From: Perkinsus olseni
Taxonomy: Eukaryota; Perkinsozoa; Perkinsida; Perkinsidae
NCBI GenBank assembly: GCA_013115135.1
Contig: JABANP010000208.1
Coordinates: 22,077 to 86,076, forward strand
Length of the DNA stretch: 64,000 nucleotides
Reading direction: 5' to 3'
In this document: in pieces, positions 8,597-51,999 of the stretch
Layout of the letters: every line of letters starts with the position of its first letter
Position numbering within the stretch: position 1 is the stretch's first letter
Notes under the pieces: generated by a model
Database searches by the model: none
What the model was told of the DNA's origin: nothing
The model's input: the letters and a program-made list of their open reading frames with translations, nothing else
Program-made: the position numbers and the translations under genes

Positions 8597-10095
8597 GGCG
8601 TTGGTCCGGTGGAAGAAGTTCGACGACCTGGTCATATGGCATCCAGCCTCTCGACGAAATGTGTGGAAACCTTTTCTACCTCATCTTCACTTTAAAGAAT
8701 CGCGGCAATTGGGCACGGCAGATGACCATTCCGTGCCACTGGTGTTGGCTACCTGGGAGTTGAACCATCTGCTTCTCACTCGATAGCTTACTGAACGTCC
8801 AACGTTGGCTCACGCAGCGGCAGTGAACTCGTTCCGAGTCTGCATGATGGTGCTTGTTCAGGATCTGACTTTGAAGGAGGCTGAAGCTGACCTCCTAGAG
8901 GAAGAAGATTTCAAAGAGGGAGGCAGCACCAGAGCGACGTGGATCGTGGCAGGTGGTCTCTTTCGAGCGGTCATAGTGCTGAAGGGAGTGTTTTGGTACG
9001 ATCAGGTTCTCTGCTGCCTCGCGACGTGCCGCTGAAGGACATCGAAAAGTTGAATAGATCGGACGATGTGGTGGTCCAAGTGTGAGAAGGGGTATTCTCA
9101 GTCGCAGGGTCTTACTGCTTTGTCAGGTTCCTTCAATCCACTGCAACGGAGGGTTCTGAAGGGACCACTACCGGCATGGGCGGCAGCAGCACTGTCAACT
9201 TGGACAGGATGGACACCTTCGAGGACAGCGTCTCGATATTTGCCTACTCGGTGAGTCGTCCGAATAGCCGGTCGGATGGAGTGTTTGCTGTCATGACAAC
9301 CACCCTGGCTCGAACCGACCACCTGTCGTTTCAGGTATCTGGTTTAGGACTTGCATTCACCTGGCGGTATCTCCTTTACTCCGACCGATCTCCTGTTGGC
9401 CGAGACGATGGTTCATCACTGCTGCAGAACCTCACCCTCTTCTGCATCTACGCGTGAGTCCTCACCGTGATTTATCCCTCTTCTCTTCGGGATACTGTCA
9501 CAGTACTACTGTGGTCTAATCGGGTGTTCGCTCGATCTGCCGATCGGATCTGCCGAACGATGCTTCGATACTTGCATTTGATGATTCATCGCCTTTGCTC
9601 ACGAAATGAGCTCCTAACTTAGGAGTCCTAAGACTGTTTTTCGGCCCTCTGGGTGCGTTCTCAAAGGCTAAGGCTTGGATTCAGGCAGCTTTCGTACTTA
9701 GGCCCCTAGCTGCCGATTGTTTGTCGGCCCGATGCGAAATTGACATTGTGAATACTGTCCTAGGGGATAGATAGACTAGCGAGTCAGTGTCACCGTGTAT
9801 GGATAGGTTCACACTACTGTGGGTAGCCACTGTTGTGGGGGTCCTGATACGGAATCTCACACCAACAGTTGAGCCGAGTAGCACTAGTACTGAACGGCGA
9901 GATGGAGGCCCTACAGAACGCACCAGCGTCGCTGAAGGGATGCCGGTTGATGGGACCGCTGAGGGAGGTACGGATACTCCCTTTGGGCTTATTCGGACGC
10001 GATGTCTTGGATAGATACGAGCGTTGCAGGAGGTTGAAGCTACAGTGCCTGCCTCAGCCCCATCGAGGCACGAGGAAGGCGAGTCACCGTCATGA
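8597..10095 (+). CDS. Uncharacterised multi-exon gene
   Basis: Exons can be chained in frame through short GT-AG introns. The exon around 8612-8742 (containing FDDLVIWHPASRRNVWK) joins through a 45-nt intron to about 8788-8999 (containing VNSFRVCMMVLVQDLTLKEA and ending VFWYDQ). Next come about 9021-9082 (DVPLKDIEKLNRSDDVVVQ), an exon ending DSVSIFAYS, and, after an intron of about 84 nt from GTGAGTCG to TTTCAG, an exon ending LTLFCIYA. After an unresolved gap come VALVLNGEMEALQNAPASL and a final exon encoding EVEATVPASAPSRHEEGE before the TGA at 10093-10095. The true start is not found. The product looks soluble. I do not recognise the family. Two 14-nt palindromic insertions lie between its last exons. 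Confidence 0.5.
9493..9512. repeat. X-n-X'-n-X palindromic insertion signature
   Basis: TACTGT-C-ACAGTA-C-TACTGT: a 6-nt word, its reverse complement and the word again, with single-base spacers. It lies in non-coding DNA between exons of the gene at 8597-10095. Confidence 0.75.
9612..9631. repeat. X-n-X'-n-X palindromic insertion signature
   Basis: TCCTAA-C-TTAGGA-G-TCCTAA. Both single bases equal those expected from an inverted copy of the surrounding 8-mer. Confidence 0.78.
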
Positions 10096-11503
10096 TGACG
10101 GCGTCATCGCCGAGAGAGTGATTTCCTATGTGATTGTTTTCTACCATTTTCTGTTTACTTTGGTGTCTGCTGTTTCATCTGCAGAGTTTTTTGTGTAGTT
10201 TGTAAGTTCAGCTATGTCCGCTGGCAGCCTGTCCGTGGCAGGGAGAGGGAGTACGCGAGCCACTTATTCTTGCATGTTTCGTTATACTAGTCGGTCACAC
10301 CGATTCGGTGTGCAGCGGAGATGGTTGGGAAAACAGGTCGCATAATGAACTGGGAAGTGTAATTTACTGTTATCAGCTCAGCTTTTCACACTTGATTGTT
10401 CCGATAAGGGGCTTGCACGTACACCAAGGGAGAGTGGCAGTTTGGTTGGCCGAGGAGTCACTTCTCGGAGTGCCTCGGAGGCGTTCAACAAAGCATAGAT
10501 GTTTTCATCGATGGCACCTTCATCATCACGCCCCGAGCCATTGCACAGACCCTGACTGTCACAGGCTCGCTCGAGCAACAGTTCTTCCAGTTGGGAAATG
10601 CACTGAGATTGGAGTGAGATCTACGAGGCATCTATTTTGCTTGCTCTCTACGAACATGTGGCCTGCATGATATGGCCTTGTTGATTCTCTACCTGCAATA
10701 CGGGTTCATGATAGCGCCGAGAAAACATCATGCCCAAGGCCCTTGGGCCAAGGGCCCCGGAAGTGGCTCTGTCCTATCCAGGCCGCTAGATATGCACTCC
10801 TCCGATGAGGATGCCAATAGCCGAAATGGTTGCATTCAAGCCCGAGTTCATTGTTTCCGTTTCCAATCATGAAGAACCTTTTGTTCGTGATCGTCGAACG
10901 AAACGCTGCGAGAGTGGCGCGGGGCCCGCACGGTGCTGTGAGCACCGCAACTCCGAAGCGTTGTAGAGCATGATCATGTAGGTCCGTGCATTGTTACGGA
11001 TATCTTGTTGCCTTCGAAGCGATGCCACGGCGACGACCGCGGGCCGCCGTAGTACTGTCCGATTACTCCAGAACTCTAGCTTTTAGAGCGTGATTTGCCA
11101 TGGCCCCAGGCCGAACAGATTATAGCGCTCCGCTACTAGCGACAGGCGCTACAACTAGATCGGTGTCTCCCAAATCGCTGACCCCTGATGCCCTCCCACA
11201 ACGAATAATCGTTTGAGCCTTGGGCTCCTGATCACTAAGTAACGCAAGAGCCGTTCTTGTCATAAAACTCGAGGGCCTCTAACCCAGATCCTACGTTGAC
11301 GCTCGAGCGAAAGAGGTACTGTATAATCGCCCTTGAGGAATAGGGGCGAATAGGAGATCTCTGAGCCATCTTCGGCCAATACTCTCTTAATGACTGAAAA
11401 ATAGTGCAGCACTAAAAACAGAAATTGTCACGAGCCCGGGTTAGTACGGGTCGTGAGTGAGATCGGGTATGGACGGGACTACAGTCGTGCCACTACTAAA
11501 GGC
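10096..11503. other. Intergenic region with hairpins
   Basis: No gene is supported. It holds the triplet signature at 10734-10753 and several small inverted repeats (CGGTGCT/AGCACCG near 10930; CACACCGA/TCGGTGTG near 10300). From about 11050 on it is homologous to 17830-18390, the flank of the S41 pseudogene. Length differences between the two flanks include 14-nt palindromic insertions present only in the 17.8-18.1 kb copy. Confidence 0.6.
10734..10753. repeat. X-n-X'-n-X palindromic insertion signature
   Basis: CCAAGG-C-CCTTGG-G-CCAAGG, with both spacer bases as expected for an inverted 8-mer copy. Confidence 0.78.
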
Positions 11504-14203
11504 TCAAGCCTTGTGGTAGACCGGACAGTCGCCGAGACCTGGGAACTGTGGATTCATCCTTAAATGAGTCCAGTTCTTGATGCTGACAATCTCCTCGTGG
11601 ATAGCCGCCCTCTCATCGAGGTTACGAGCCCACATATTCATCTGCTTATGCGGTGGTATAATGTAGAATTGTCGAGGTAGAGATTGTGGCCCAAGCTGGG
11701 ATGTTGGTGTATCCATATCCCACGTGTATCGAGCTCTAGCACTATTGGGGAATGGTATTGGCTTGTTGACCCAAGTGTTGGTATGCCTCTTGGACCAGTC
11801 AGACTCTCCGAAAGTAGCCCAGTAGCCGAGATGACTGGCGATATTCAGTAATGGGGAGGTATTGTCATACTCGAGAACGTCTCCACCTCCAAAGGAGGCG
11901 ACGTCCATCGCCTGATCCTTTAGGCCACCGAAAGTGAAAGCAGTCGCCGCACCTGTGAGCTGCAAAGTCTGCGTAAATAGAGAACAGGCGGAACCGCAGT
12001 TGCCATCAGTCACGAAGGCGACCTCTGTCCAATACTCAGCATCGTAGCTTGGCTGAACGAGGTTCGGCATAACATTCTCAAGAGTATCATAGCAAAACCC
12101 GAATACACTCTCAGTGGAGTAGTTCGAAGGCTTACCCCACGGGAGGACTCGATAGTTGGTGAACTGACTTAGTGGAGGGTCGAATGGCTCGCGAGTTTTG
12201 GGATTTATCAGATCTTCGTTATCAAAGAGGTACCAGCCATACTGCGGAGCCAATTCCGAACCCACCGCTGTTGAGGCATCCAGGAAGAGCCTTTCCTTGA
12301 GGAAGATGTTGAAGAGCCTCGCCCGCTGAGCAGCCGTGCTCTGTGACAATATACCCTCCTCGATCTTCTTCAGACGCGGTACCTCGATGTTCTCCACTCG
12401 AGAATTCTGTGTTGTCTCTGCGTCAGAGAGCAACTGATCGGCGTAGTTGAGGAGGAGGTACAGCTGTTGGAACCTCTCATGAATGAAGGCAGGGTCTCCG
12501 ACCTTATCGACATTCTCGCTGAAGAAGTTGTCGATAGTCTGATTGTAGTTACCTCCAAAAGAGGATACCCAAGATATCCAGTTATCCGTCATGTGTCGAA
12601 CAACAGGGACACAAACTTCATCCACGTTGGGTACTATGTACCATTGCAGAGCGAAAGTTGAGATGACATATCCACCACCATTGGTAGAGACGTCGAATAA
12701 TATTCGAGTCACGTTGTGCTGCCGAGCAAAGTCTTGGACTTCCGAGAAGTTCTCGTAGACGACTGCCGGTAGAGAGAATTCTTCACCCCCGGGGACAAAG
12801 TCTGGGACACTGACAACCACAGTGTCATCTAACAATGAATATTGGTAGCCGGTTCCCTTGATCCACTTATCTTCTTGAGTCACGGGAGTCTTTGTCGCAA
12901 AGAGCACATCATCAACTCGGCTATCAACCTTGTGGGCTAAAATGTCGTCAAATATTTCGTTATTGTAGTCGCCAGCTGAGAAGTCTCCAACAAAATCCCA
13001 CAGAGTGTCACCCTCCTTCTGGTAGAACTCGGTCTCGAACTTCACCGTCCTCTGGAAGAGAGGATTCCAATTGGTCAGCACGTTGTAGAACTGCGCGGTG
13101 ATGACATCGGCTCCAGCGGATTTGCTGTAGTCGCTCAAACGCCCAAGCCAATTTATCGTCTCTGTAGACCCGTCATCATAAGTGACGTTGTGTGGTCCTG
13201 TCGGAGGCTGAAACAAACGCAGGTCCCTGTCTACGGCGGAGCTCACGAAAAAGTGATTGTTGAGTCTCTGGAGGGGGCCCTGGTAGATCCCCAAATACGG
13301 GCCACTTTCGGAGACAGCATCCTGCATCCACTGAAGAACAGGCTTGCCATCCACCTCCACGATAACATCACCCTCCTTGTGCTTAGTCACCGGTGTGCCG
13401 TAGATGAGGGGATAATACGACTCGTCCAAGTCCGGGAAACCGAGAGTTATCACCTGAGCTCCGTCACGCATGCGCGATTCGAAGCGGATGGGCAGCACAT
13501 AGTAGAAGTCTCTGTAGGGCGTATCATACCGTGTGTGGGCGTCGTTCAAACGACTCAATTCGCGCTGTAGAGCGAAGTGGAAGGGAGCCGCTGGGATGCT
13601 CTCACTAAAGAACTTTCTTCGCTCCGCCGGGGTCATCGGGTCCAACACATCTGCGAACTCCCTTATCTTGTCATCAATGGATCCCTTAATGTCAACATCA
13701 AGAGAATGGAGTTTGAATCCGCAGGTGTTGGACTGAATGGATTTGTTCAGCCCGTTGGCGACATCCGTGAAGGCGTAGGTCTCAGTCAAGCCGTACTTCA
13801 GATTGTGGAGGGTGAAGAGAGCGTTGAAATTGGTGATGGTCAGACTGTTGAGACACCTGCTAACATCCTCTGCCTTGGCCCATATGTAATCCTTATTGGC
13901 ATCGTCAGCAAGATGCTCTTGGACCGTCTGACCCCTCGCTGGGTCGAGGAGAGCGCACTCGTCCACAGCAGGGATTGGCGGTGTCGGTATATTAGACGTG
14001 TTCGCAGGGCCGCAGGGAATGGGGGGATGACTGCCGTGACACACCGCACCAGGTCCCACCTTGTAGAACATACAGTAGGAGTCTTCACGCTGCGTCTCAT
14101 CGCGGCAAGCTTGGTCCCATTTTTCGGAATCAGGGGGTTGGCCTTGGACGAGGGACTTCGACACCCACCAGATGGTAACCGAGAAAAGGCGGAGCAAGCG
14201 CAT
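11504..14203 (-). CDS. S41-family (C-terminal-processing-like) secreted protease
   Basis: A single uninterrupted frame of 899 codons. The N-terminus MRLLRLFSVTIWWVSKSLVQ looks like a signal peptide. A PDZ-like stretch EGDVIVEVDGKPVLQW lies near residue 280. The family's nucleophile region is seen near residue 734 as VTDGNCGSACSLF (G--GSA context). The segment ILFDVSTNGGGYVIS near residue 500 is the strand-turn that precedes the active site in S41 enzymes. Fungal and protist secreted S41 proteins of this length exist. The gene diverges from an AP2-type gene copy starting at 15360, sharing about 1.15 kb of upstream DNA, and it has a broken paralog at 18394-20783. It is the only intact S41 copy in the window, and it has no intron although its neighbours do. 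Confidence 0.85.
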   Translation of the reverse strand: MRLLRLFSVTIWWVSKSLVQGQPPDSEKWDQACRDETQREDSYCMFYKVGPGAVCHGSHPPIPCGPANTSNIPTPPIPAVDECALLDPARGQTVQEHLADDANKDYIWAKAEDVSRCLNSLTITNFNALFTLHNLKYGLTETYAFTDVANGLNKSIQSNTCGFKLHSLDVDIKGSIDDKIREFADVLDPMTPAERRKFFSESIPAAPFHFALQRELSRLNDAHTRYDTPYRDFYYVLPIRFESRMRDGAQVITLGFPDLDESYYPLIYGTPVTKHKEGDVIVEVDGKPVLQWMQDAVSESGPYLGIYQGPLQRLNNHFFVSSAVDRDLRLFQPPTGPHNVTYDDGSTETINWLGRLSDYSKSAGADVITAQFYNVLTNWNPLFQRTVKFETEFYQKEGDTLWDFVGDFSAGDYNNEIFDDILAHKVDSRVDDVLFATKTPVTQEDKWIKGTGYQYSLLDDTVVVSVPDFVPGGEEFSLPAVVYENFSEVQDFARQHNVTRILFDVSTNGGGYVISTFALQWYIVPNVDEVCVPVVRHMTDNWISWVSSFGGNYNQTIDNFFSENVDKVGDPAFIHERFQQLYLLLNYADQLLSDAETTQNSRVENIEVPRLKKIEEGILSQSTAAQRARLFNIFLKERLFLDASTAVGSELAPQYGWYLFDNEDLINPKTREPFDPPLSQFTNYRVLPWGKPSNYSTESVFGFCYDTLENVMPNLVQPSYDAEYWTEVAFVTDGNCGSACSLFTQTLQLTGAATAFTFGGLKDQAMDVASFGGGDVLEYDNTSPLLNIASHLGYWATFGESDWSKRHTNTWVNKPIPFPNSARARYTWDMDTPTSQLGPQSLPRQFYIIPPHKQMNMWARNLDERAAIHEEIVSIKNWTHLRMNPQFPGLGDCPVYHKA

Positions 14204-14214
14204 CGTCTTAAATA

Positions 14215-14234
14215 TAAACTGAGTTTATAAAACT
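14215..14234. repeat. X-n-X'-n-X palindromic insertion signature
   Basis: TAAACT-G-AGTTTA-T-AAAACT, one mismatch in the third arm. It lies 12 bp upstream of the S41 start codon and has no counterpart upstream of the S41 pseudogene. Confidence 0.7.
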
Positions 14235-14983
14235 CCCTACGATAGGTCCACAACAACGCAATCATGTAAAGGTTTACCCGAATCCGCTTTCCCAATCAGT
14301 CTTCAAGCCATCGCGCGGCTATCCCGTGTTCCGCGGGGGAAATGCGCGTGCGTGTAACACGCATCATCATCTCCTCACCAGTTTGACCCCACTGCCGCCA
14401 TCATAGTGAGCAGGACGACAACGGCATCAGTATACTTCTACTCCTCTTCTGCGGTTCAGTTAGGTTCCTGAGTTCGGATAGATGAGAATGTCACCGGTCG
14501 AAGTCGTCGAAAGATGCTGACCGAAGCATAGGTCACGAGGAGACAGAGCATCTCCTCAGAGCACGTCACGTTTGTGTGGGCAAGTGCGCCAGCTTGTGCG
14601 TCACCACCCTCAACTGCCCCGTTGTATCCCGTGGTTCCTGTTTCATTGAAGGAGAGAACATCGCCGGCACATCCTCTACAGCACCAGTTTCCTGGAGTTA
14701 CCGAGATGGCAACTGTGAGTAGCCATGTTCGACGGGCCACGAGGCGATTCCGAAATTCTTCCGTTATAAATCATCGTTGACAGTTTGTGGCACAAACTCT
14801 GTGCGGTGAGCAATGTGTACGCGCGTGACATGAAGGTCTTCTCGCGCGGCTCGGAGCGCTTGCTTTTAAAGCAAGCAGGCATCGCAAAGCAATGCTTTGC
14901 GATCTCCACGTCGTCGGCTCTGAAATCTGGAAGTTATCAGGTGGGAAGAGTCATCTCAGGAGACCCTCATCAAGGGATGGAGC

Positions 14984-15003
14984 TTAGGTGATCTAAGTTA
15001 GAT
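14984..15003. repeat. 14-nt palindromic insertion, shown by comparison with a paralog
   Basis: TTAGGT-G-ATCTAA-G-TTAGAT. The homologous site near 21553 reads TTAGATCAG without the extra 14 nt, so the insertion is polymorphic between the two copies. Confidence 0.82.
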
Positions 15004-15378
15004 CAGAGTCGGATCATCACACTCTGAAGTTCGCAATCTGAACTTGATTCGATGCGCAAGTACATAACTGTTGGCTTGCGCGCCAGATTCGCTTTCTCCG
15101 AGCGAACGAATCTAGTCCTTGTGACGCAGCATTCGAGAAAGCTTCTCGAATGTTGCATCAGAATGATGAGCATCGGCGAAATCTTGTGACAAGATATCTG
15201 TCGTCTTGTTGCTTGTGAAAACTGCTAAGTATCCTATCGTTTAGTTCACTATAGATAATCGGGTTTGCTCTGCAGTCAGCTGCAGTGAGCCGGCTATGAA
15301 TGATGACAATGTCGTAGACTTGGCATTCTCAAAATCACCGCGAGTGTGTTTACTCGTAAATGGAAAACGATCGAGGGA

Positions 15379-15398
15379 GTAGGATTTCTACTGTAGGA
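15379..15398. repeat. 14-nt palindromic insertion in exon 1 of the AP2 pseudogene
   Basis: GTAGGA-T-TTCTAC-T-GTAGGA. The copy at 21890 has the same flanks and is exactly 14 nt shorter here. The insertion shifts the reading frame. Confidence 0.85.
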
Positions 15399-15469
15399 AC
15401 CAACAACTCCCTGAAGGACAACTCGAAGTTCGATTGATCGAGGAAACCGAATGGGATACCGATACCGTA

Positions 15470-15489
15470 GGGCAGTCTGCCTTAGGCAA
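15470..15489. repeat. 14-nt palindromic insertion at a splice donor
   Basis: GGGCAG-T-CTGCCT-T-AGGCAA. In the two other AP2 copies GGCAG is followed directly by the intron donor GTGAGA. Here 14 nt intervene and then GTAAGG follows. Confidence 0.78.
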
Positions 15490-15732
15490 GTAAGGAAATA
15501 GTGGCGGCGGTCGGGGTGCCATACTTGACTACTACAGAAAATCGGATACTGGAATCGATGTTGCATGTCACATAGAAGAGTCAGCCGTGATGAGCTAGGC
15601 CTATGCTGTCTACCTTCCCTCCTCACTAATACTGATCTTATAGAGGCCCACGCCGTGAGAGACCCTTCGGTAGGGCTGGGCTCCCGAGTCCGTACGAGAG
15701 GAGGTGCATCAGGCCGGCTGTCTTCATGGTGG

Positions 15733-15752
15733 GGAGATTATCTCCTGGAGAT
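15733..15752. repeat. 14-nt palindromic insertion in exon 3 of the AP2 pseudogene
   Basis: GGAGAT-T-ATCTCC-T-GGAGAT, perfect. The copies near 22238 and 25500 read a single GGAGAT followed by ACCCTACC. Confidence 0.88.
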
Positions 15753-15940
15753 ACCGTATTTTGTGGAAGTCAAACCTTGTTATGAGGTCGGCGTAGGCTC
15801 CATCTTAGCAACTCCGTTGGTAGTAATTTTCAGTACATTTCCTGAAGTTACCAGAAATCCATTGTAGAAACATTGCTACTCATGGCCCGGAATCGAATCA
15901 CCGTGGAAGACATCCTCAACGGACAAGAAGGCCCGGCAAC

Positions 15941-15990
15941 GGATCCAATGGGTGCTACGGATCAGCGGATCCAATGGGTGCTACGGAGCA
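15941..15990 (+). repeat. 26-bp tandem duplication
   Basis: Two adjacent copies of a unit beginning GGATCCAATGGGTGCTACGG, in the decayed AP2 copy. The other AP2 copies have one unit at this place. Confidence 0.8.
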
Positions 15991-16212
15991 TCCACGTTGT
16001 TAACCGGCTAGGCACAGACCGTGCAGCACAGTTAACACTGGATGCTTCCCGAGTCAACTCAAATCGCTCATCGACGAATGCGTAGGGCTCGAGAACGTGG
16101 ACGGTAAGTTGGAGCGTCCCGTTGTGACTGACGGGTCTGGGCGAGGAGGATACCCGGAAAGGGTCAGTGCCGCGCGATGACCGCTCCCAGTCGTGGTCCG
16201 GAATGACTCGTC

Positions 16213-16232
16213 CCATTGCCAATGGGCCATTC
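16213..16232. repeat. X-n-X'-n-X palindromic insertion signature
   Basis: CCATTG-C-CAATGG-G-CCATTC. The two other AP2 copies read TCGTCCCATTGGG at the corresponding position, without the extra arms. Confidence 0.72.
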
Positions 16233-16593
16233 AATGAAACGAGATTCTGTGGGTTATGGAATCTCTCAAGTATCCCAAGTTTGGGTGCGCGGGATGGGCC
16301 TAACCGATGAGCACGACCAATGGCTGCGAGCCCCCCCCCCCACGATGGCCCTGAGTCACGGTGAAAAACAACCATTGAAGGTCCAATGGTGAACTATCGG
16401 TTCCCAGTGAATCACGGGCCGTGATTGTCACTGTCAGTTACTGTACTCACTAGAATTGTATAAGTTCGCTGAGGAAATAAACTTGAGCTCCACACCGCCC
16501 GATCCTCACGTGGTCGCCGCCTGTATGGCGGCTCGCCGAAACGAGTAATTGCGATGGGTTTTGTCGTAAGGTCACCGGAATGATGCCAAGATG

Positions 16594-16613
16594 GCGATTA
16601 AATCGCCGCGATT
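16594..16613. repeat. X-n-X'-n-X palindromic insertion signature
   Basis: GCGATT-A-AATCGC-C-GCGATT, perfect, with both spacer bases as expected for an inverted 8-mer copy. Confidence 0.8.
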
Positions 16614-16730
16614 TGGTGGCAACAAATTGACGCTGGGTGGGTTCCGGCTTTGAAGGTTCATGACGATGTTGATCAACGCCGTTGAAATCCTTGGCTAGTT
16701 GAGGTTCATCAACTTCTCGTTTGTGGTTTT

Positions 16731-16750
16731 CAGAATTATTCTACTAGAAT
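16731..16750. repeat. X-n-X'-n-X palindromic signature (weaker)
   Basis: CAGAAT-T-ATTCTA-C-TAGAAT, one mismatch in the first arm. The spacer bases do not fit the inverted 8-mer rule, so this may be an old or chance case. Confidence 0.5.
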
Positions 16751-17005
16751 CTCCCACGACAGCGGCATTGCCCGTAACATGTATTAGCTCGTTTTAACTC
16801 AAGAACACGCGAAAAGTGGTATTGAAGAAACTCTGAGCTAGTTATACGCCCAAAACGTCAATGAGAAGATATTGGCGAACTAAATTTTTGTTACTAGACG
16901 GGTTTATAATGATTCATTGTTCAAAACAGCCAGGTAAGGCGAAACATCTTCAGGGAAATGTTCAAACATTAGCAGCAGCAGCAGCAGCAGAGAGTAGGCC
17001 AGAGG

Positions 17006-17197
17006 TCAGCGTGGGGTACCGCAGTAACAGCCCTTGTCCGCGTGCCCGAGACATTGATGATAGTGCTGAAGGCATACCCCGTTACAGACACTCCCACCAC
17101 AGAAAGCCAGAGCACGGAGTTGGGCATGGCACGGTTGCGGGCCAGATAGCAGGGCGAAGCAGATAATAGTGACAAGGGAGAGGTAGGTCTGAACCAT
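17006..17197 (-). CDS. Small secreted cysteine-rich peptide (hypothetical)
   Basis: A 63-codon frame with a clear signal peptide (MVQTYLSLVTIICFALLSG, then a likely cleavage near HAQ) and a mature part of about 37 residues with six cysteines spaced C-x4-C-x3-C-x6-C-x7-C-x-C. The order signal peptide plus compact cysteine framework is typical of small secreted disulfide-rich proteins, but it matches no family I can name. No intron is needed. The frame is short and has no paralog here, so it could be chance. No function is assigned. Confidence 0.45.
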   Translation of the reverse strand: MVQTYLSLVTIICFALLSGPQPCHAQLRALAFCGGSVCNGVCLQHYHQCLGHADKGCYCGTPR

Positions 17198-17889
17198 ATT
17201 AATGATAACTTGTGAAGGACAGCTGCCAGCCCAACCCAGTCACTCACAACACTAGGCCACTGAGTGTGGAAGGTCCAAAACTCGTGGAGTAAACTGTGTA
17301 TGCTATACAAGTTCTTAAAGGACTTTAATTTCAAGCGTGAATGCCGCCATCGCACGGACCCTCATCAAGGCACTTCATTCGGCACTGCCGAATCTGCAGC
17401 ACGCAGAGGCACTGTCGCGTCACCACGGGACAGCATGGGACATGTCCCTCGGGATTGGCGGGAGCGGACGGGAAGGGCAGCAAGTTGCTGCCAGCAACAG
17501 CTCATAGCATTCGAACAGAGCGGATCCCCACGATGCGGAGGTTAAACCTCTGAGGTTGGGAGGCAGCGTATTGCTCTGCTCCGACCTGTTCAACTTCGCC
17601 AGGTCAGAGCCAGCAACTGGCCAGGCCAGTCTCACCTTGTCTTTGCTGCCAATTGGTAGTTGTCAGCCACCACTGCTCAGTAGGACACGAGGGAGTCGCT
17701 CGACTTCATATTCGAGTAGTTTGAGTATGTAGTCGGGCAACTGAGTTTGAATCAACCTGGGTCGAGTCCGCAGTCTCTAGTCAAGCTAGGATGCCCTTCC
17801 CAACCATCTGCTACGTTAGCTTATGGCGCCCTTAATACTGTCCCGATTACGCGCCTGTTCAGAGCGTGATTGGCCATGATCTTAGACCC

Positions 17890-17923
17890 AACAGAAATTC
17901 TGTTACAGAATCTGTTGAAAAGA
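17890..17923. repeat. Two nested 14-nt palindromic insertions (28 nt in total)
   Basis: Inner event: ACAGAA-A-TTCTGT-T-ACAGAA (17891-17910). Removing its 14 nt restores an outer event: AACAGA-A-TCTGTT-G-AAAAGA. The homologous site near 11120 reads AACAGATTATAGC and is exactly 28 nt shorter. Confidence 0.85.
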
Positions 17924-17952
17924 TGATAGCACGCCGCTCCTAGCGACAGTCG

Positions 17953-17972
17953 CCACAAGTTGTGGCCCACAA
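17953..17972. repeat. 14-nt palindromic insertion, shown by comparison with a paralog
   Basis: CCACAA-G-TTGTGG-C-CCACAA, followed by CTAG. The homologous site near 11150 reads CTACAACTAG, exactly 14 nt shorter. Confidence 0.88.
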
Positions 17973-18037
17973 CTAGTTCAGACTCGGGACTTCCGAGCCC
18001 CTCCATTGCTAACGACAATCGTTAACTCCCGATGCCT

Positions 18038-18057
18038 TGCCACTTTGGCAGTGCCAC
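18038..18057. repeat. 14-nt palindromic insertion, shown by comparison with a paralog
   Basis: TGCCAC-T-TTGGCA-G-TGCCAC, one mismatch in the middle arm. The homologous site near 11195 is 14 nt shorter (GATGCCCTCCCACAAC). Confidence 0.82.
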
Positions 18058-18393
18058 AACAAATGATCGTTCAAACATTCGGTTTTCTGACCACTTGGTA
18101 ACGCAAGAGCCACTCTTCCAAGTCGATGGCCTCTACGACAGGTTCAGCGTTTACGCAAAACTTTGAAAGTTTCGCGTAAAGTTCAACTCTCGCTGGAGAA
18201 AGACGTAATGTATAATGGCCTTTAGGGGTAGGGCGCAAATTAGAGATTTATGAGCCATGTTCAGCTACGGCTCTCTTAATGACTGAAAAAATGGTGCACC
18301 ACTAAAAAATAGAAATCTGCACGAGCCCCGGTTTGTACGGGTCGTGCGTGAGATTGAGCATGGACGGGACTGCAGTCGAACCACCATTAGGGC

Positions 18394-20783
18394 TCAAGCC
18401 TTGTGGTAGACCGGACAGTCGCCGAGATCCGGGAACTGCGGATTCATTCTCAGATGAGTCCAGTTCTTGACGCTGACAATCTCCTCGTGGATAGCCGCCC
18501 TCTCATCGAGGTTACGAGCCCACATATTCAACTGCTTATGCGGTGGTATAATGTAGAATTGTCGAGGTAGAGATTGTGGCCCAAGCTGGGATGTTGGTGT
18601 ATCCATATCCCACGTGTATCGAGCTCGTAGCACTATTGGGGAATGGTATCGGCTTGTTGACCCAAGTGTTGGTATGCCTCTTGGACCAGTCAGACTCTCC
18701 GAAAGTAGCCCAGTAGCCGAGATGACTGGCGATATTCAGTAGAGGGGAGGTATCGTCATACTCTCATACTCGAGTTTTGGGATTTATCAGCTCTTCGTTA
18801 TCAAAGAGGTACCAGCCATACTGCGGAGCCAATTCCGAACCCACCGCTGTTGAGGCATTCAGGAAGAGCCTTTCCTTGAGGAAGATTTTGAAGAGCCTCG
18901 CCCGTTGAGCAGCCGTGCTCTGTGATAATATGCCCTCTTCGATCTTCTTCAGACGCGGTACCTCGATGTTCTCCACTCGAGAATTCTGTGCTGTCTCTGC
19001 GTCGGAGAGCAACTGATCGGCGTAGTTGAGGAGGAGGTACAGCTGTTGGAACCTCTCATGAATGAAGGCAGGGTCTCCGACCCTATCGACATTCTTGCTG
19101 AAGAAGTTGTCGATAGTCTGATTGTAGTTACCTCCAAAAGAGGATACCCAAGATATCCAGTTATCCGTCATGTGTCGAACAACAGGGACACAAACTTCAT
19201 CCACGTTGGGTACTATGTACCATTGCAGAGCGAAAGTTGAGATGACATATCCACCACCATTGGTAGAGACGTCGAATAATATTCGAGTCACATTGTTCTG
19301 CCGAGCAAAGTCTTGGACTTCCGAGAAGTTCTCGTAGACGACTGCCGGTAGAGAGAATTCTTCACCCCCGGGGACAAAGTCTGGGACACTGACAACCACA
19401 GTGTCATCTAACAACGAGTATTGGTAGCCGGTTCCCTTGATCCACTTCTCTTCTTGAGTCACGGGAGTCTTTGTCGCAAAGAGCACATCATCAACTCGGC
19501 TACCAACCTTGTGTGCTAAAATGTCGTCCAACATTTCGTTATCGTAGTCGCCAGCTGAGAAGTCTCCAGCAAAATCCCACAGACTGTCACCCTCCTTCTG
19601 GTAGAACTCGGTCTCGAACTTCACCGTCCTCTGGAAGAGAGGATTCCAATTGGTCAGCACGTTGTAGAACTGCGCGGTGATGACATCGGCTCCAGCGGAT
19701 TTGCTGTAGTCGCTCAACCGCCCAAGCCAATTTATCGTCTCTGTAGACCCGTCATCATAAGTGACGTTGTGTGGTCCTGTCGGAGGCTGAAACAAACGCA
19801 GGTCCCTGTCTACGGCGGAGCTCACGAAAAAGTGATTGTTGAGTCTCTGGAGGGGGCCCTGGTAGATTCCCAAATACGGGCCGCTCTCGGAGACAGCATC
19901 CTGCATCCACTGAAGAACAGGCTTGCCATCCACCTCCACGATAACATCACCCTCCTTGTGCTTAGTCACCGGTGTGCCGTAGATGAGGGGATAATACGAC
20001 TCGTCCAAGTCCGGGAAACCGAGAGTTATCACCTGAGCTCCGTCACGCATGCGCGATTCGAAGCGGATGGGCAGCACATAGTAGAAGTCTCTGTAGGGCG
20101 TATCATACCGTGTGTGGGCATCGTTCAAACGACTCAATTCGCGCTGCAGAGCGAAGTGGAAGGGAGCCGCTGGGATGCTCTCACTGAAGAACTTTCTCCG
20201 CTCCGCCGGGGTCATCGGGTCCAACACATCTGCGAACTCCCTTATCTTGTCATCAATGAATCCCTTAATGTCAACATCAAGAGAATGGAGTTTGAATCCG
20301 CAGGTGTTGGACTGAATGGATTTGTTCAGCCCGTTGGCGACATCCGTGAAGGCGTAGGTCTCAGTCAAGCCGTACTTCAGATTGTGGAGGGTGAAGAGAG
20401 CGTTGAAGTTGGTGATGGTCAGACTGTTGAGGCATCTGTTCACATCCTCTGCCTTGGCCCATATGTAATCCTTTTTGGTATCGTCAGCAAGATGCTCTTG
20501 GACCGTCTGACCCCTCGCTGGGTCGAGGAGAGCGCACTCGTCCACAGCAGGGATTGGCGGTGTCGGTATATTAGACGTGTTCGCAGGGCCGCAGGGAATG
20601 GGGGGATGACTGCCGTGACACACCGCACCAGGTCCCACCTTGTAGAACATACAGTAGGAGTCATCACGCTGCGTCACATCGCGGCAAGCTTGGTCCCATT
20701 TTTCGGAATCAGGGGGTTGGCCTTGGACTGAGGGACTTCGACACCCACCAGATGGTAACCGAGAAGAGGCGGAGCAAATGCAT
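18394..20783 (-). pseudogene. S41 protease pseudogene (paralog of 11504-14203)
   Basis: Nearly identical to the intact gene along its length, but with three disabling changes. An extra T at about 20729 shifts the frame inside the signal peptide, so the start MHLLRLFSVTIWW soon reaches a stop. A deletion of about 320 bp with an 8-bp addition at about 18765-18772 removes about 104 codons, including the GNCGSACS nucleophile region, and creates a stop at the junction. An extra G at about 18627 shifts the last exon-length stretch. The remaining sequence still shows mostly silent differences, so the duplication or inactivation is recent. It diverges from the AP2 copy at 21890 just as the intact gene does from the one at 15360. 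Confidence 0.9.
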
Positions 20784-21889
20784 CGTCAACAACGCTATGA
20801 TGAGAACGGAGCATAGTCTGCTCAACGGACGCACGCCATATGCCTCTCGAAAGCTTCTGTTCTAGGTTGACCGAAATCCGCTAGCCCAATCAGTCTTTCG
20901 GGCCGTTGTGCGGCTTTCCCTGGTTCCGCATAGCAGGTGCGCATGCGTGTAACACGCACCATCCTCTCTTATCCTCTCACCAGTTTGACAACACCACGGC
21001 CACAGTGGTGAGCAGAACAACAAGGGCATCAGTATTCTTCCAATCCTCTTCTGCGTTGCAATCGAGTTTGCTGAGTTCGAATAGAAGAGGATGCCACTGG
21101 TCAAAGCCGTTGAGGGATGCTGACCGAAGCATAGGTCGCGATGAGGCAGAACCTCTCCGCAGAGCACGTTACGGTTTGTGCGGGCGAGGTCGCCAGCTTG
21201 TGCGTCGTCCCCTTTAACTGTCCCGTTGTAGCCGGGGATCCTCTGTTCAATTGAAGGAGAGAACATCGCCTGCTCGTATTTCACGGCATCAGCTCCTTAT
21301 GGGCTTATCTAGATGGCGAACCATATATAGCCATCTTCGACGGGCCACGAGACGATTTCAAAGTTCGTCCGTTACGAATCATCATCAACAGCTTGTGCGT
21401 ACGCAGCATGTACGCGCCTGGCATCAAGGTCTTCTCGCGCGGCTCGGAACGATTGCTTTCCGATCTTCGCGTCGTCGGCTCTGAAGTTCTGAGGTGATGA
21501 GGTGAGGAGATTCTCTTCATTGGAGCTCCCTCCCTTGACAAGGGAGGGAGCTTAGATCAGTCTGATCATCGGACTCTGCTGAGATCTGATGCGTAAGCAT
21601 GTAACTGACAGTTACTTGCTGTAGGCTTTGTGCGCTGGATCAGCTTCTTCGAATCTTACATCAGAAAGACGTCGCATGCTGAGCATCGACGGAATCTCGT
21701 GACAAGATACCCGCGCCTTGCCTGTGCCAATGGCTATGTTACCTAGCCTTAGTATCCGATTGCTCAGTTTCTACTATCGATGAACGGGTTGATGTTGCCG
21801 GTCTCCCGTCAAACCGAAACGGGCTTTCAATGATGACAATGTCGTAAACTTCGCATTCTCGAAATCACCGCGAGTGTGTTTACTCGTAA
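20784..21889. other. Divergent upstream region of the second block
   Basis: Homologous to 14204-15359. It contains a strong perfect palindrome near 21525-21553 (AGCTCCCTCCCTTG/CAAGGGAGGGAGCT with a one-base centre). In the first block the matching site is only an imperfect inverted repeat. Confidence 0.6.
21602..21621. repeat. 14-nt palindromic insertion, shown by comparison with a paralog
   Basis: TAACTG-A-CAGTTA-C-TTGCTG, two mismatches in the third arm. The homologous site near 15066 reads CATAACTGTTGGC, exactly 14 nt shorter. Both spacer bases fit the inverted 8-mer rule. Confidence 0.75.
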
Positions 21890-24477
21890 ATGGCAAACGA
21901 TGGATGGAGTAGGCAGCGACAACTCCCTGAAAAACAACTCAAGGCTCGATCGATCGAGGAAATCGAATGCGATGCCGATACCGTACGGCAGGTGAGAACA
22001 TAATGGCGGCGGCGGCCGAGGTGCCATCCTTGACTACTGTAGATGATCGGGTACTGGAATCGATGTTGCATGTCACATAAACGAGTCAGCCGTGATGAGC
22101 TAGGCCTATGCTGTCTACCATCTCTCCTCACTAATGCTGATCTAATAGAGGCCCACGCCGTGAGGGACCCTTCGGTAGGGCTGGGCTGCCGAGTCCGTAC
22201 GAGAGGTGGTGCATCAGGCCGGCTGTCTTCATGGCGGGGAGATACCCTACCTTGTGAAAGTCAAACCTTGTTTTGAGGTCGGCGGAGACGAACACTCCTT
22301 CCTGCTGATCATTACTGTTCAGTATCTCTCTAGCACCGATCAAAAATCTATCGTCGAAGCAATGCTGGCCATGGCTAGGAGTGGAACCACGGTGGAAGAC
22401 GCCCCGGATGGCCGAGAGGGCCCGGCAGTGGGCCCAGTAGGCGCTAGGGAGCATCTACGTCGCTACCCGACTGTGCACAGTTAACCCTGGATGCAGCACC
22501 GGATGAACTCAAGTCGCTCATCGACGCATGCATAGGGCTTGAGCGAGTAGACGATGAGTTGGAGAACTCCGTCCTGAACACTGACGAATCCAGACGAGGA
22601 GGATACCCGGAGAGGGTCGGTCATGGCGGTCACTTCCAGTCGTCGTCCCATTGGGTCTGACAGGTGACTGACTGTCCGTCCTCATGCCCGGGTAGGATGG
22701 CCTTCCCTCCTCTAGAGATCGCTGAGTTGAAAACTAAGCTCGGGTGGATGAGGGTCTCTGTGGACCCCGACTGCCTGACGGGCCTCAGTGCATGTGAGAC
22801 ATCCTCTGGCGAAACACCACGGTCATTCCCCCGCCAGGCACCGTCCACAACAACGTCGGTGTATTACTGCGGCCATTACTGCCACCCGATGCCGTCAACC
22901 CTCCACGGGAGATGTTCAAGACACCACTCAGTATGCTGGTTGACGCTGCGCAGGGAAGAGGCCCCATCCTGCGGCGGCCTAGTAATCATCTTCAGTAATA
23001 ACCATCAAGTACTTCCATCAGACAACGCTGTAATGGTTGAGGACGATCGAAGCTGTCGCCGTCAGTGTGTTAATGTCCTGAGATGTATGGATGGCTACTG
23101 GTAACTCTACCGGAGCCAATGCCTCTACTCATCAATCCTGATCAGGGAGCGCGATCCGTCCCGACCCGAATGCATCATTCCGGCTAAGCCGAAGTGGAGA
23201 AGCTGTTCCTTTGCTCCCAAGGTGAAATGAGAGCATCCCTAATGACCCTTTTTCATGGAATCTGCTGACGTGTCGCCTTCCAGGCATCCTCTCAAGAGAC
23301 ACGCGGCTCTGACTTGATGAAACCGTGAGGGTTACTACAGCAGGCGTCGAGTCAGCGCTTATTGACTTTAGTGGTCGCTCTATAGAAGATAACCTACTGA
23401 CTCTACTGAGGTCAAGACTTGATGCCGACGAGGTGAGAGGATATGCTCATCTTCTGGGCATAACTGATGCCAACGAGGAGAGTACGGAGGAGCTTCTCCT
23501 TCGGATAGCCGAGGAGTTGGCTATGAGGGTCGCACAGGGTATTCGGCCGACGACGCCTAGTAGGGCTTCCGACCCATACCGGTCCCGAGCATGATCTTCA
23601 GATTACTTCATGTTTGAGCCACAACGGTGGGCTCAGCTGAGGGAAGCTATACAGTCGATGCTGCCCGTAGGCATCGGGGCGGCGGGAAGAGCGGAAGACT
23701 GGCCATTTAGGAGGCGATGGCCAACCTCCCCCCTGGGGCGGTGGGGAGCACTTACCGAGAGTTGGCTGCTGCAATATCCGAGCCCGGGATCACTGAAGTG
23801 GTAAGAAAAGTGGCGACTTCGAAGCGACCTGAAGGTGAGATTCGGAATCAGACTTCTCTGACAGGCCAAATCATTTGGCCCAAATGCCTTCTTCTGTCAG
23901 GCTACGGCCAGCAGAGGGGCAAGAGAGTCTCCTGCGATGTATCTTCTCACGGTGATGTTAGTCGAGTCAGTGCACGGAGAACAAGCACGAGGCAGAGTGG
24001 AGTTCTCGGTGTATCCTGGTACGGAAGGAGAGGAAGTTGGGATGCTTATTGGAACACAAAAGAGGGACAACAAGTCCACAAATATTTCTCGGTCTCGAAG
24101 TATGGCGACGAGGAAGCGTTGGCTCTCGCCACGGGTGAGCAGAATCTATTCTGCCTGCTGTTACGCCATCATAAGTTATGATTCATAACCTTTCAGAATG
24201 CCGTAGGAATGCTGAAATTCGCGGTGAGGCTGTGGCGAGTCTGAGTGGGACTTGCCATAAGCAGAGTGGCGTGGTTGGGGTTCAGTGGAAGCGCCCTTGT
24301 TATTGGGTCGCCAAATGGCGTGTGAATGGGAAAGCAATCGAGAAGCGGTTTTCAGTAGAGAAGTACGGCAGCGAGGAGGCAGCACTGGGAGCAGCCATTG
24401 GTGAGCCGATCCGCCCTCATGCCCAACTATACCCACCCCACCCCTCAGCCTGTCGCCGTTCTAAAGTACCCGAATGA
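21890..24477 (+). pseudogene. Twin-AP2 gene, second copy, with frame-breaking changes
   Basis: The exon order is the same as in the copy at 25158. Exon 1 (21890-21991) begins MANDGWSRQRQLPEKQ; intron 1 is 51 nt. Splice sites and phases match the third copy throughout. Exon 5 has a 1-nt loss near 22805, later compensated, and a TAA at 23102-23104 where the third copy reads TAC. Exon 8 has a 1-nt loss near 23730 (CCTCCCCCCTGG against CCTCCACCCCTGG). The two AP2 domains themselves are open: SGVLGVSWYGRRGSWDAYW and SGVVGVQWKRPCYWVAKW. The intron between them is 62 nt, 14 nt longer than in the third copy, because of a palindromic insertion. It may be a pseudogene or may carry assembly errors. Confidence 0.78.
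24169..24188. repeat. 14-nt palindromic insertion inside an intron
   Basis: TCATAA-G-TTATGA-T-TCATAA, perfect, with both spacer bases as expected. The same intron in the copy at 25158 reads TCATAAGCTCTCAG and is exactly 14 nt shorter (48 against 62 nt). Confidence 0.9.
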
Positions 24478-42900: not shown

Positions 42901-43555
42901 ACCTAAGATACTCAAAGATTCTCACAGCGCACAGCGACGATTCTCTACATCCGAGCGAGGCTTCCCGCCCTGATCACCGCCGCCCTTGCCGCACAACTCC
43001 TGAAGTTTTCTTATCTAAGGGAACGGGGAGACCAGAAGAACGACCAATTTGAGCCGCTAAAAACGTTCGACGTAAAAAATGCGACAAAACTGCCGGAAAA
43101 ATTTTGGCCTTCCGGGAGATTTTCGCGCCGTGAGCCCGCCGTCGAAATCGGACAGCAAATACCGAGACGAAACTCGACGAGTAAACTTTCAAATTATCAC
43201 CATCAAACTCTCAACCGCACGCGAGAAGATGCCCTCCCAAACTGGATGAGACACCCTTCACCGTCGAGACCACCAACGTACCGATTCCTCCTGTCCGGTG
43301 ACTGCTGCTGTCGTTGGCATCTTCAACTGAGGTTACACACAGAGTGACCTTCCACGAGCTGCATGATTCGCTCACCTTGACCTGATGAGGGAAGGACTTC
43401 GCGGTCTCCCATTCTTGAAAGGAGATATCAATATCATTTTTGGGTATCTCGACGTGACGATGTAGAACGGTTGACGTTTCGATAGGCTCGGTAGCATGAA
43501 CCTGAGCAGAAGTCACCGAACAGAGCCCCCACGCGGCCAGACTTACTTCAAGTGG
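39942..43555 (-). CDS. Large modular secreted protein, paralog of 34941-39525
   Basis: The same exon order as its left neighbour can be read: near 43480-43380 a segment VEIPKNDIDISFQEWETAKS matching IKDAGVDIVVQEWDDAQS, near 43175 FVSVFAVRFRRRAHG, near 42730 QREFVSHFVDLWNAYH, and near 42495 IDLSNSGLTVEVGERE. Further exons contain HFEVIADEHADRGRASLLQD (near 42010), GQAHISIGAKAKVNRGFAAR (near 41770) and FYWHPVKVTYGKKAALEQEV (near 41500). The C-terminal part is strongly acidic (DDEDDEEEEEGEM near 40330), and a stop follows SEGNLVFSFDE at 39942. The signal-peptide exon was not fixed. Intron ends often read TCTTAG. It may comprise more than one gene. Confidence 0.42.
41148..41159 (+). repeat. Dispersed 12-mer GCGGAGCGAAGC
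   Basis: Exact copy, preceded by TTAACA, in a probable intron of the minus-strand gene. Confidence 0.7.
41371..41384 (+). repeat. B-box 14-mer with perfect T-arm
   Basis: CCGGG-TTCGATC-CCCGG forms a perfect five-pair T-arm. It lies about 22 bp into the intron that follows the exon ending QLRRALG on the minus strand. The preceding TACCTGACCTCGAGATC resembles a tRNA anticodon arm. Confidence 0.6.
42644..42655 (+). repeat. Dispersed 12-mer GCGGAGCGAAGC
   Basis: Exact copy preceded by TCAACA, as at 55311. Confidence 0.7.
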
Positions 43556-50250: not shown

Positions 50251-51980
50251 CTAACTCAAAGGCACCATCCTTGGTAGAATGTAGATTTCCTTCTTCTCGC
50301 GTCCAGTGGTGTCGTACGGAACCTTCTTCGTTATTTCGGTCATGATTTTCTTATCTTCTTCGGCCTTCTTGGTCTGCTCATTCCCGCCGCCGAGGTAATC
50401 CTGATCGCAACTCCGCATAAGGACTTCATATTAGGACCACTTACTGAGTAGTAAATGGCGGTGAGGGTGAAAACCTCTACAATGGCCCTGCAGAAACTTT
50501 CTGTGACTCCCACTTGGACCATGTAAGCTTCAATTGCTGCGTCCGAGACCGGTCCTCTGAAAGTAGCGCCTGAAAAAAAGGCGAAGCTCACGGGCGAGCC
50601 GAGAATTTGGCCGACTCACGAATGGGAGTAAACATCATCTTCCTCCCTTTGGTTGATGTGAAGGGAATGCATGCACGAGGGGCGATCTCCATGGTAACAA
50701 TGTCCTTTATCCACGTTCCATGGGGGCTGAAGAAATCCTGAAACAGGCTCGGACGGCTCTAAGATTTCTGAGGGACCCAATGCTGCACTCACATATCCTA
50801 TAATGTAGAAGGACAGAGGCGGCATGCTCAAACGGGCGATCAAAGACGTTTCCGGAGCGGTTTTGTCACTTCTGTAACCCTCGCAGGTCGAGGTAACATC
50901 AACAGCGGTCGAATCACCCGAACTGGATGAGGTCGAGTCCGACTCAGAATCGTTATCAGAATCATCATCGGAGCTTTCACCGGAGGTGTCCTGGCCCTGA
51001 GTAGTGGAGAGATGGCGCACGTTTCACTCATGAGCACTCAAGATAGTTCCCCAGTGCGGACCTTGGTCCACCAAGGATCATGCAATTTTTTGAAACCCTG
51101 GGCCTTGGACTGAAGCACGTGATGACTACCGAGGTCCTCCTTCCCGGCTCGACTTTCCTGAGTGGAGATTAATCGTCGAAGGCATGAAGCATCGACGGCG
51201 TATCCATTGGCGTGAGCTTGTACCTTGTAGAGCTTCTCAAGCCTCAGGGCATGGGCCATGAAGGCGCCATATGCGTCGCCCGTGTTATCGTAGATGAAGT
51301 CAATTGTCATATCGTCAGTGACGCGTGTGTTCACGCTGCTGGCCTTCATCTTAATGGTGGGCAGACCGCTCTTGGGGTCGATGAATGCTTGGGGCAGCTC
51401 AGTAAGCTTCACTGTGCATACCGTTATCTGCTGGTCAATGGGACGTTTCAGCTAGGAGTAGCAGAGGTTCTTACGTATCTCGTGCTGCTGCTTTGCTTCG
51501 GCGGTGCACCGCAGAGTTTCTGCACTTCCGCGACCTGAGGAGAAATAGAGGCAAGCGCACGAAGGACCGAAGGGCCATCACACCTTTTTAGCTTCTTTTC
51601 CCTCCAGTGTGTACAACAAGCTCGGCACTTCCAGCTAACGGAAGAGACACAATCTAGTTCACCGCGGTCAACAATCCGGAGCCCGAGCACACCACAGAAT
51701 ACGATTGCAAGGCTATGCTGAGCTAGGTGCTCCATTGCTCGCTCTATTACTAAGTGGAGTGTGCAAAATTATACTCAGAGTTGCCGTACTGCCCTACGCC
51801 GAGGAAACTCACCGCAAAGACCAAGCCTTCGTCCACGAGGCGCGTCCAGCTGTTGAAAGTGTATGCGATATTCTCATTCGGTGGCCTCGTTAATCCAGTA
51901 AACCCTATTGTTGGACGTTGCTTCTTTGAGATGGTCAAAGTCCTCTGTATGAAGTGGGTCTTCCAACTTGGAAGTTCCAA
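50251..51980 (-). CDS. Paralog of the gene at 43797-46430, possibly decayed at its 5' end
   Basis: Exons match the paralog block by block: KTHFIQRTLTISKKQRPTIG and TFNSWTRLVDEGLVFA before a GTGAGT donor (51970-51810), LTELPQAFIDPKSGLPTIKM and ALRLEKLYK before a GT donor (51410-51225), an acidic Ser/Asp-rich linker (50990-50900), MPPLSFYIIGYVS (near 50800), MMFTPIRES (near 50635), YMVQVGVTESFCRAIVEVFT (near 50500), and the end PYDTTGREKKEIYILPRMVP before the stop at 50251. Upstream, the frame breaks between KPFAPQ and LPSWKTHF, where the paralog is continuous, and no signal peptide is seen, so it may be a pseudogene. Confidence 0.5.
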
Positions 51981-51999
51981 GCTCCAATATTTGTGGAGC

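Follow-up and report, generated by a model that had tools for sequence, protein, structure and literature searches.

Excision of hAT-superfamily Ac/Ds elements leaves footprints that combine deletions with insertions of palindromic (P) nucleotides, the palindromes being centred on the complement of the element-adjacent base (PMC5873905), and in Arabidopsis and Saccharomyces cerevisiae most of their joints show microhomology (PMC5873905; PMC1978519). The palindrome arms can be as long as 20 nt in S. cerevisiae, and in Candida albicans the P-nucleotide insertions do not exceed 3 nt (PMC5873905; PMC1978519); 28 kinds were counted among 128 footprints in C. albicans, and arms of at least 3 nt occurred in 66 of 140 in S. 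cerevisiae (PMC5873905). The hAT transposase Kat1 cuts mostly 1 nt from the terminal inverted repeat (TIR) and forms hairpins (PMC4763223), and the hAT target rule is nTnnnnAn (PMC10368747), a rule also given for hobo (PMC11226609). Here we describe a class of 14-nt insertions of fixed geometry in a 64-kb stretch of the Perkinsus olseni genome (the window; C122:22077-86076 in a 61.5-Mb assembly of 968 contigs), which are very probably excision footprints of hAT-superfamily DNA transposons. The Perkinsus sites share with Ac/Ds the palindromic P-nucleotides and their centre, but the Ac/Ds footprints are heterogeneous, whereas the predominant product in Perkinsus is a full 8-nt inverted copy between 7-nt halves, with few other joints.

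In V(D)J recombination, hairpins are opened off-centre, but the coding ends are unlike each other, so that no built-in 8-nt complementarity exists, and the P-nucleotides are usually a few nt long. The V(D)J hairpins form on the flanks as they do in hAT excision (PMC6900584). Hermes and TcBuster are similar in having flank hairpins and an 8-bp duplication, with nTnnnnAn being the Hermes target, but TcBuster has nnnTAnnn as its target, and the scars that it leaves in human cells consist of insertions a few nucleotides long or of deletions reaching 50 bp at most (PMC3499496). In mPing, as here, the target duplication itself is the source of microhomology (PMC4561436), but its repair is precise, whereas the complementarity in Perkinsus would lie in hairpin-derived inverted overhangs and a palindrome is left behind. 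Palindromic hAT footprints have long been known; the variant seen here is a dominant product, scattered over the genome, in which two 7-nt halves enclose a complete inverted copy of the target. Among the top results of searches in open-licence papers, no earlier report was found of such scars in Perkinsus or of the full product as the dominant genomic form.

Geometry and distribution of the 14-nt sites

The sites have the form X-n-X'-n-X, a 6-nt word, its reverse complement and the word again, separated by single bases. A pattern scan identified 13 exact sites in the window, starting at 9493, 9612, 10088, 10734, 15733, 16594, 17478, 17538, 17891, 17953, 23866, 24169, and 51961. Arms of 7-12 nt gave no match, arms of 5 nt gave one that overlaps a counted site, and arms of 4 nt gave three; across a grid of arms 6-10 and spacers 0-6, matches occurred solely at (6,1,1). 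Order-2 Markov copies of the window (60 copies) contained a mean of 0.017 exact sites and a maximum of 1. The fixed-geometry 14-nt pattern is therefore confirmed as real, and the first-pass annotation of this DNA was right about the fixed 6-1-6-1-6 geometry. The pattern that it described is present, but its count of 17 events was not reproduced, as there are 13 exact sites or, with decay tolerated, 32.

With the 8-mer aXb denoted as Y, each site reads aX + b'X'a' + Xb, that is, Y(1-7)+Y'(8)+Y(2-8), and 22 nt stand where 8 nt were before, a net gain of 14 nt. This 22-mer model was set down ahead of the prediction tests, and sites were scored by their agreements with it out of 14; because the model is symmetric under reversal, a reversed-sequence control is uninformative. 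The window contains 32 sites with at least 12 of 14 agreements (Markov mean 0.5), 30 of them within 9.4-24.2 kb. The earlier proposal that the spacer bases belong to an inverted 8-mer agrees with the exact sites, as both bases obey this rule in 10 of the 13 (one base in 2, neither in 1) and in 19 of the 25 exact sites found in C1:1-200000 (C numbers are contig labels of this analysis). In the latter region, arms 6-9 combined with spacers 0-3 yielded one further match besides the exact class.

Together, the window and C1:1-200000 form a 264-kb sample with 84 sites scoring at least 12 (32 in the window and 52 in C1); the 63 sites scoring 11, compared to 31 in a Markov-1 control, were left out of this number. 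In 64 kb covering 21 loci with a hAT domain, on 21 contigs, there are 75 sites scoring at least 12, including copies of single events in duplicated loci, and 35 of the 75 are perfect; 19 of the 21 loci have at least one site. Perfect scars thus number 35 in 64 kb around hAT genes versus 29 in the 264-kb sample. The pattern is spread beyond the window and is not merely local. Extrapolation from the 19 perfect scars in 200 kb of C1 gives several thousand perfect scars genome-wide, which is only an order of magnitude because the sites are clustered. In the window, 26 of the 32 sites lie at 9.4-18.1 kb, at 28 times the density of the remainder, and 26 of the 52 C1 sites lie in its first 11 kb (L002-L003, C1:1-11000; L numbers label loci fetched from other contigs of the same genome), at 17 times the density of the remainder. 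Local hopping or a chromatin preference could possibly underlie these clusters. Only 2 of the 84 sites are located in stop-to-stop open reading frames (ORFs) of at least 200 codons, which cover 20-23% of the sequence, in line with the annotated position mostly outside genes. C1 also has a short tandem array at 15139-15711, with several overlapping self-matches of 84-88% identity.

Seven alignments of paralogs (14.4 kb in total, 92% identity) allowed insertions to be read against copies without them. The commonest long indel was 14 nt (n = 16, compared to 3 gaps of 12 nt, none of 13 nt, and 3 of 15 nt), so that the exact 14-nt insertions first noticed by paralog comparison stand. Fourteen of the 16 gaps fit the model (12 with scores of 13-14 and 2 with a score of 11) and represent 13 distinct events, one being seen in two pairs; both gaps that do not fit belong to one C1 pair. 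In the insert-less copies opposite the 16 fitting gaps of 12, 14 or 15 nt, Y was found exactly in 8, with one mismatch in 5, with two in 2, and with three in 1. A single target 8-mer at the empty site is thus observed, as expected of a hAT footprint. The insertion was found in either paralog, as recurrent events would give.

Duplication length, hairpin offset and target preference

The model was generalized to duplication lengths of 4-14 nt and hairpin offsets of 0-3 nt, with expectations calculated as simple powers of 1/4. A duplication of 8 with an offset of 1, written (8,1), gave 29 exact sites in 264 kb compared to approximately 0.001 expected; in the hAT loci it gave 35, and no other combination of lengths 6-12 and offsets 0-2 had a match. 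Other lengths and offsets were ruled out: the four (10,3) matches in 264 kb each lie 1 nt from a model site (three exact and one 13/14), and the remaining excesses are mild, namely (4,1) 109 vs 64, (6,3) 95 vs 64, (5,1) 12 vs 4, and (8,3) 2 vs 0.25. An 8-bp target duplication, as expected of a hAT footprint, is therefore observed. The duplicated unit had initially been taken as 6 nt, which was incorrect: the real unit is the 8-mer Y, the 6-nt arms being Y minus both end bases, and a 6-bp target duplication is ruled out since the end bases of the 8-mer mostly obey the rule too. The suggestion of an enzyme-defined footprint, with transposon excision as one candidate, is borne out by the (8,1) peak together with the hAT evidence.

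The 8-mers also follow the hAT target preference nTnnnnAn. In the 52 sites scoring 13-14, T at position 2 and A at position 7 occurred 49 times out of 104 compared to 24.4 expected (p ~1e-7), and in a separate set of 49 distinct hAT-locus sites, counted as distinct 22-mers only, 42 times out of 98 compared to 24.3 (p ~7e-5). For lower-scoring sites, the counts were 29/64 at score 12 (n = 32) and 45/126 at score 11 (n = 63). Polymerase template switching at quasi-palindromes, with no transposon involved, is known to place inverted copies beside their template. This process should give a spread of lengths, whereas only arms of 6 nt and spacers of 1 and 1 nt were found, and neither the 8-nt duplication length nor the target-sequence preference belongs to it; we consider it extremely improbable as the source of the sites.

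The hairpin offset is reflected in perfect palindromes with a 1-nt loop, of which there are 95, 28, and 12 at arm lengths of 7, 8, and 9 or more, compared to 8-17, 1-4, and 0-3, respectively, for loops of 0 and 2-8 nt. Outside scars scoring 11 or more, the corresponding numbers are 24, 8, and 9 for loop 1 versus 8-15, 0-4, and 0-3 for other loops. The 1-nt-loop palindromes that a flank hairpin with a 1-nt offset would leave, as expected of a hAT footprint, are thus observed. Among the 9 palindromes with arms of at least 9 nt outside scars, the longest have arms of 17 nt (C1:22981) and 14 nt (window 21524); the former is a perfect palindrome spanning C1:22981-23015 and lies outside the scar clusters. 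Furthermore, the window has at 14853 a 45-nt insertion relative to C857 that contains a pair of 1-nt-loop palindromes, one with 9-bp and the other with 11-bp arms, which have a 6-mer (TGCTTT) in common. It can be read as one excision in which opening took place about 10 and 12 nt away from the hairpin tips and the ends were then joined un-annealed. The right loop base matches the left flank, and the left loop base mismatches the right flank. The expected 8-mer is absent from C857 at this site, which may be a result of a deletion in the paralog or of some other history.

Excision of a hAT element could produce the observed form as follows. An element would insert at an 8-bp target to give Y-element-Y, an arrangement seen for the element of L023 and for a 42-bp mini-element in L044. 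Upon excision, the transposase would nick both flanks at a distance of 1 nt from the element, and the strand ends would be joined into hairpins with a 1-nt loop, of which the palindromes observed are the likely traces. The left flank would then read aX, the loop base b', and X'a' back, with the right flank being its mirror image. If opening of the hairpins occurred far from their tips, as the pair of 9- and 11-bp palindromes suggests, the left overhang would be Y' (b'X'a') and the right overhang its complement, because both flanks carry an identical Y. Annealing of the overhangs, trimming of the excess, and ligation would yield Y(1-7)+Y'+Y(2-8), adding 14 nt, and later substitutions would cause the site to decay. 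The same 22-mer would arise at any nick position that leaves overhangs long enough to overlap, so that the geometry would be set by the duplication length and not by a measured cut. The first-pass annotation had held that P-nucleotide footprints do not predict this form, which is incorrect because flank hairpins with a 1-nt offset and annealed overhangs do yield it, and its interpretation is on the whole partly supported.

hAT elements and points for and against their involvement

A profile search of the genome gave at least 21 matches over the cut-off for the hAT dimerisation domain, and one locus (L028) encodes a 581-aa ORF with DUF4371 and Dimer_Tnp_hAT domains. The hAT copy of L023 is 97.8-99.5% alike to those of L031, L032, and L024 at different places, with one more copy at 93.9%; the near-identical copies show recent transposition. 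The TIR TAGAGATGGGCAAA is accompanied by an 8-bp duplication on both sides in L023 and L025, the L023 element having GTCTGATG on each side. The mini-element of L044 (596-653, C12) has TIRs that agree at 12 of 14 positions and GTGTCTTT on each side. With up to one mismatch, the TIR 12-mer occurs 452 times compared to 221 for a backward control. The scar-bearing genome therefore contains hAT transposase and TIR elements, as expected of hAT footprints. Perfect scars also occur inside hAT elements (L023 at 2563 and 2662; L032 at 1226 and 1325) and are common to two element copies, so that elements also serve as targets. In L033 (1227-1262; C206, ~42955-42990), a decayed scar (12/14) sits immediately beside a hAT element's TIR, which looks like a second insertion at the same 8-mer; the paralog L072 has CTGTCCCC once, and the far flank was not located.

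The element boundaries were also compared with paralogs by searches with one flank. The element-less paralogs run through the 8-mer, with one base of it differing for L031. Two paralogs agree across the boundary for L031 and L022, and one paralog or differing ones were found for L032, L024, and L033; C775 and C301 have one flank each in common with hAT copies. At the guessed element ends in L046 and L047, no element ends were found. The left flank is common to L022, L025, and L036 (95-98%) and the right flank of L022 differs, its 8-mers being GTCCGGAG and AGTTGTAC, which suggests that L022 may be a rearranged element locus. In L025 (1968-1995), the duplication GTCCGGAG runs on as TCCGGAG tandem units adjoining the element.

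The flank hairpins and the scars could in principle be the work of a different DDE superfamily that duplicates 8 bp of its target (Merlin, P, or an undescribed one), since a scar alone reveals just the duplication length, offset, and target preference. P and Merlin are not known to make flank hairpins. The 1-nt-offset flank hairpin together with nTnnnnAn are hAT traits, hAT elements are present, and the scars are denser around them. Merlin, with duplications of 8-9 bp, has relatives in Perkinsus marinus, whose TIRs and duplications are reported as not identifiable there (PMC8101967). Overall, we regard a superfamily other than hAT as quite improbable.

A domesticated hAT transposase (like Kat1 of yeast) or programmed removal could alternatively make the scars without ordinary transposon traffic, which would suit the dense clusters, the unusually uniform product, and the large excess of scars over recognisable elements in 264 kb. 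In contrast, the empty paralogs mostly have a single Y that varies by site, which points to scattered targets and no fixed recognition sequence, and the 97.8-99.5% alike copies noted above point to recent transposition, leaving this explanation very improbable, slightly more so than another superfamily.

Several observations weigh against excision of hAT elements as the source of the scars. The hAT footprints in the literature vary more than the uniform product of this host and are in many cases shorter. The 264 kb hold 84 scars but yielded no element flanked by an 8-bp duplication whose TIRs agree in at least 11 of 14 positions; six candidates with an 8-bp duplication have TIRs matching at 10 of 14 and look like chance, and the same scan gave 50, 10, 2, 1, 0, and 1 maximal duplications of 5-10 nt, respectively, so that length 8 is not singled out. 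Among the elements, L025 lies in a 7-nt tandem repeat, the flanking 8-mers of L036/L043 differ by one mismatch, and those of L022 and L045 are unequal. The one-flank searches of hAT copies gave no pair of paralogs in which one is filled and the other carries the scar. The arm-7 palindromes with a 1-nt loop are mostly parts of scars, so that the palindrome tests overlap the scar tests. Finally, partial P-nucleotide products are near-absent in the 264 kb: there are 2 of type (0,6) vs 0.02 expected, and 4 each of (0,3) and (3,0) vs 1. A plain 6-nt tandem occurs 270 times vs 64, and partial products were set aside as having no large excess beyond this tandem, itself taken as ordinary tandem repeats. 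The ratio of scars to elements would be read most simply as the outcome of turnover over a long time combined with local hopping, although this does not fully account for it. The idea that the uniform product stems from a lack of end joining is unsupported, as Ku, Pso2/Artemis-type (DRMBL), and Mre11 domains each have one match in the genome.

Located sites and their meaning

The sites and palindromes located in the window are listed in Table 1. Members of a paralogous gene family lie among them in the window at 11504-14203 (-), 18764-20677 (-), and 25-28 kb, and others in C857, C140, and C622; the source names for this family refer to a tail-specific protease domain. The 899-aa ORF at 11504-14203 (-) has 91% identity to a Perkinsus olseni protein, all 15 proteins returned for it were from Perkinsus, and the protein had no Pfam match.

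Table 1. Footprints and 1-nt-loop palindromes in the window, with the target 8-mer (Y) and the number of agreements with the 22-mer model.
Feature	Position	Y	Score	Remarks
Footprint	9492..9513	ATACTGTG	13/14	
Footprint	9611..9632	CTCCTAAG	14/14	
Decayed footprint	9732..9753	ATGTGAAT	12/14	
Footprint	10087..10108	CCGTCATC	14/14	
Decayed footprint	10221..10242	CTGGCAGG	12/14	
Decayed footprint	10290..10311	GTCGGTGT	12/14	
Footprint	10733..10754	CCCAAGGG	14/14	
Decayed footprint	11476..11497	GCACTACT	12/14	
Footprint	14214..14235	ATAAACTC	13/14	
Footprint	14783..14804	GTTTGTGC	13/14	Paralog C857 lacks exactly 14 nt and has a single Y
Palindrome, 9-bp arms, 1-nt loop	14858..14876			Interpreted as the left part of a footprint joined un-annealed, with long P-nucleotides
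Palindrome, 11-bp arms, 1-nt loop	14881..14903			Interpreted as the right part of the footprint to which 14858..14876 belongs
Footprint	14983..15004	CTTAGATC	13/14	C857 and window copy at 18.8-22.6 kb lack 14 nt, single Y
Decayed footprint	15001..15022	GATCAGAC	12/14	
Footprint	15378..15399	AGTAGGAA	13/14	Window paralog at 18.8-22.6 kb lacks 14 nt; scar common to C857
Footprint	15732..15753	GGGAGATA	13/14	Two window paralogs lack 14 nt; scar common to C857
Decayed footprint	16011..16032	GGCACAGT	12/14	
Decayed footprint	16212..16233	CCCATTGG	12/14	
Footprint	16404..16425	CCCGTGAT	13/14	Paralogs C857, C140, C622 lack 15 nt here
Footprint	16593..16614	GGCGATTT	14/14	C857 lacks 14 nt, its 8-mer has 2 mismatches to Y
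Footprint	17378..17399	TTCGGCAG	13/14	Common to C857
Footprint	17477..17498	GCAGCAAC	14/14	Common to C857
Footprint	17537..17558	GGAGGTTT	12/14	6-nt arms exact, both spacers break the rule
Decayed footprint	17616..17637	ACTGGCCT	12/14	Common to C857
Footprint	17890..17911	AACAGAAT	14/14	Common to C857
Footprint	17952..17973	GCCACAAC	14/14	
Decayed footprint	17976..17997	GTTCCGAG	12/14	
Decayed footprint	18037..18058	TTGCCACA	12/14	Common to C857
Palindrome, 14-bp arms, 1-nt loop	21524..21552			Candidate one-sided long P-nucleotide trace
Decayed footprint	21560..21581	GTCTGATG	12/14	
Decayed footprint	21601..21622	GTAACTGT	12/14	
Footprint	23865..23886	GCCAAATG	14/14	Paralog alignment messy (gap 12, 3 mismatches to Y)
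Footprint	24168..24189	ATCATAAC	14/14	Window paralog at 25.2-27.8 kb lacks 14 nt
Footprint	51960..51981	CTTCCAAG	14/14	
Decayed footprint	56001..56022	GCTTCCTT	12/14	

It is possible, although we hold it only tentatively, that the repair of hAT excisions in Perkinsus is channelled into one stereotyped, near-deterministic +14-nt product. The hairpins would then be opened at a distance from their tips and the two target duplications would pair along the whole of their inverted sequence, and the thousands of scars left in this way would be a main source of long indels outside genes. As a further step, the removal may be directed by the host or be carried out by a domesticated hAT system, in place of ordinary element traffic. 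As a mutational process, a gain of 14 nt would cause a frameshift in coding sequence. Since exact scars can be found by computation alone, the genome retains legible traces of earlier hAT excisions at places that no longer hold an element. The sequence by itself shows how long the duplication is, how far the hairpin is offset, and which targets are preferred, and it hints at the position at which hairpins are opened. The same scan, applied to any eukaryotic genome, would probe how hosts open and join hairpin ends.

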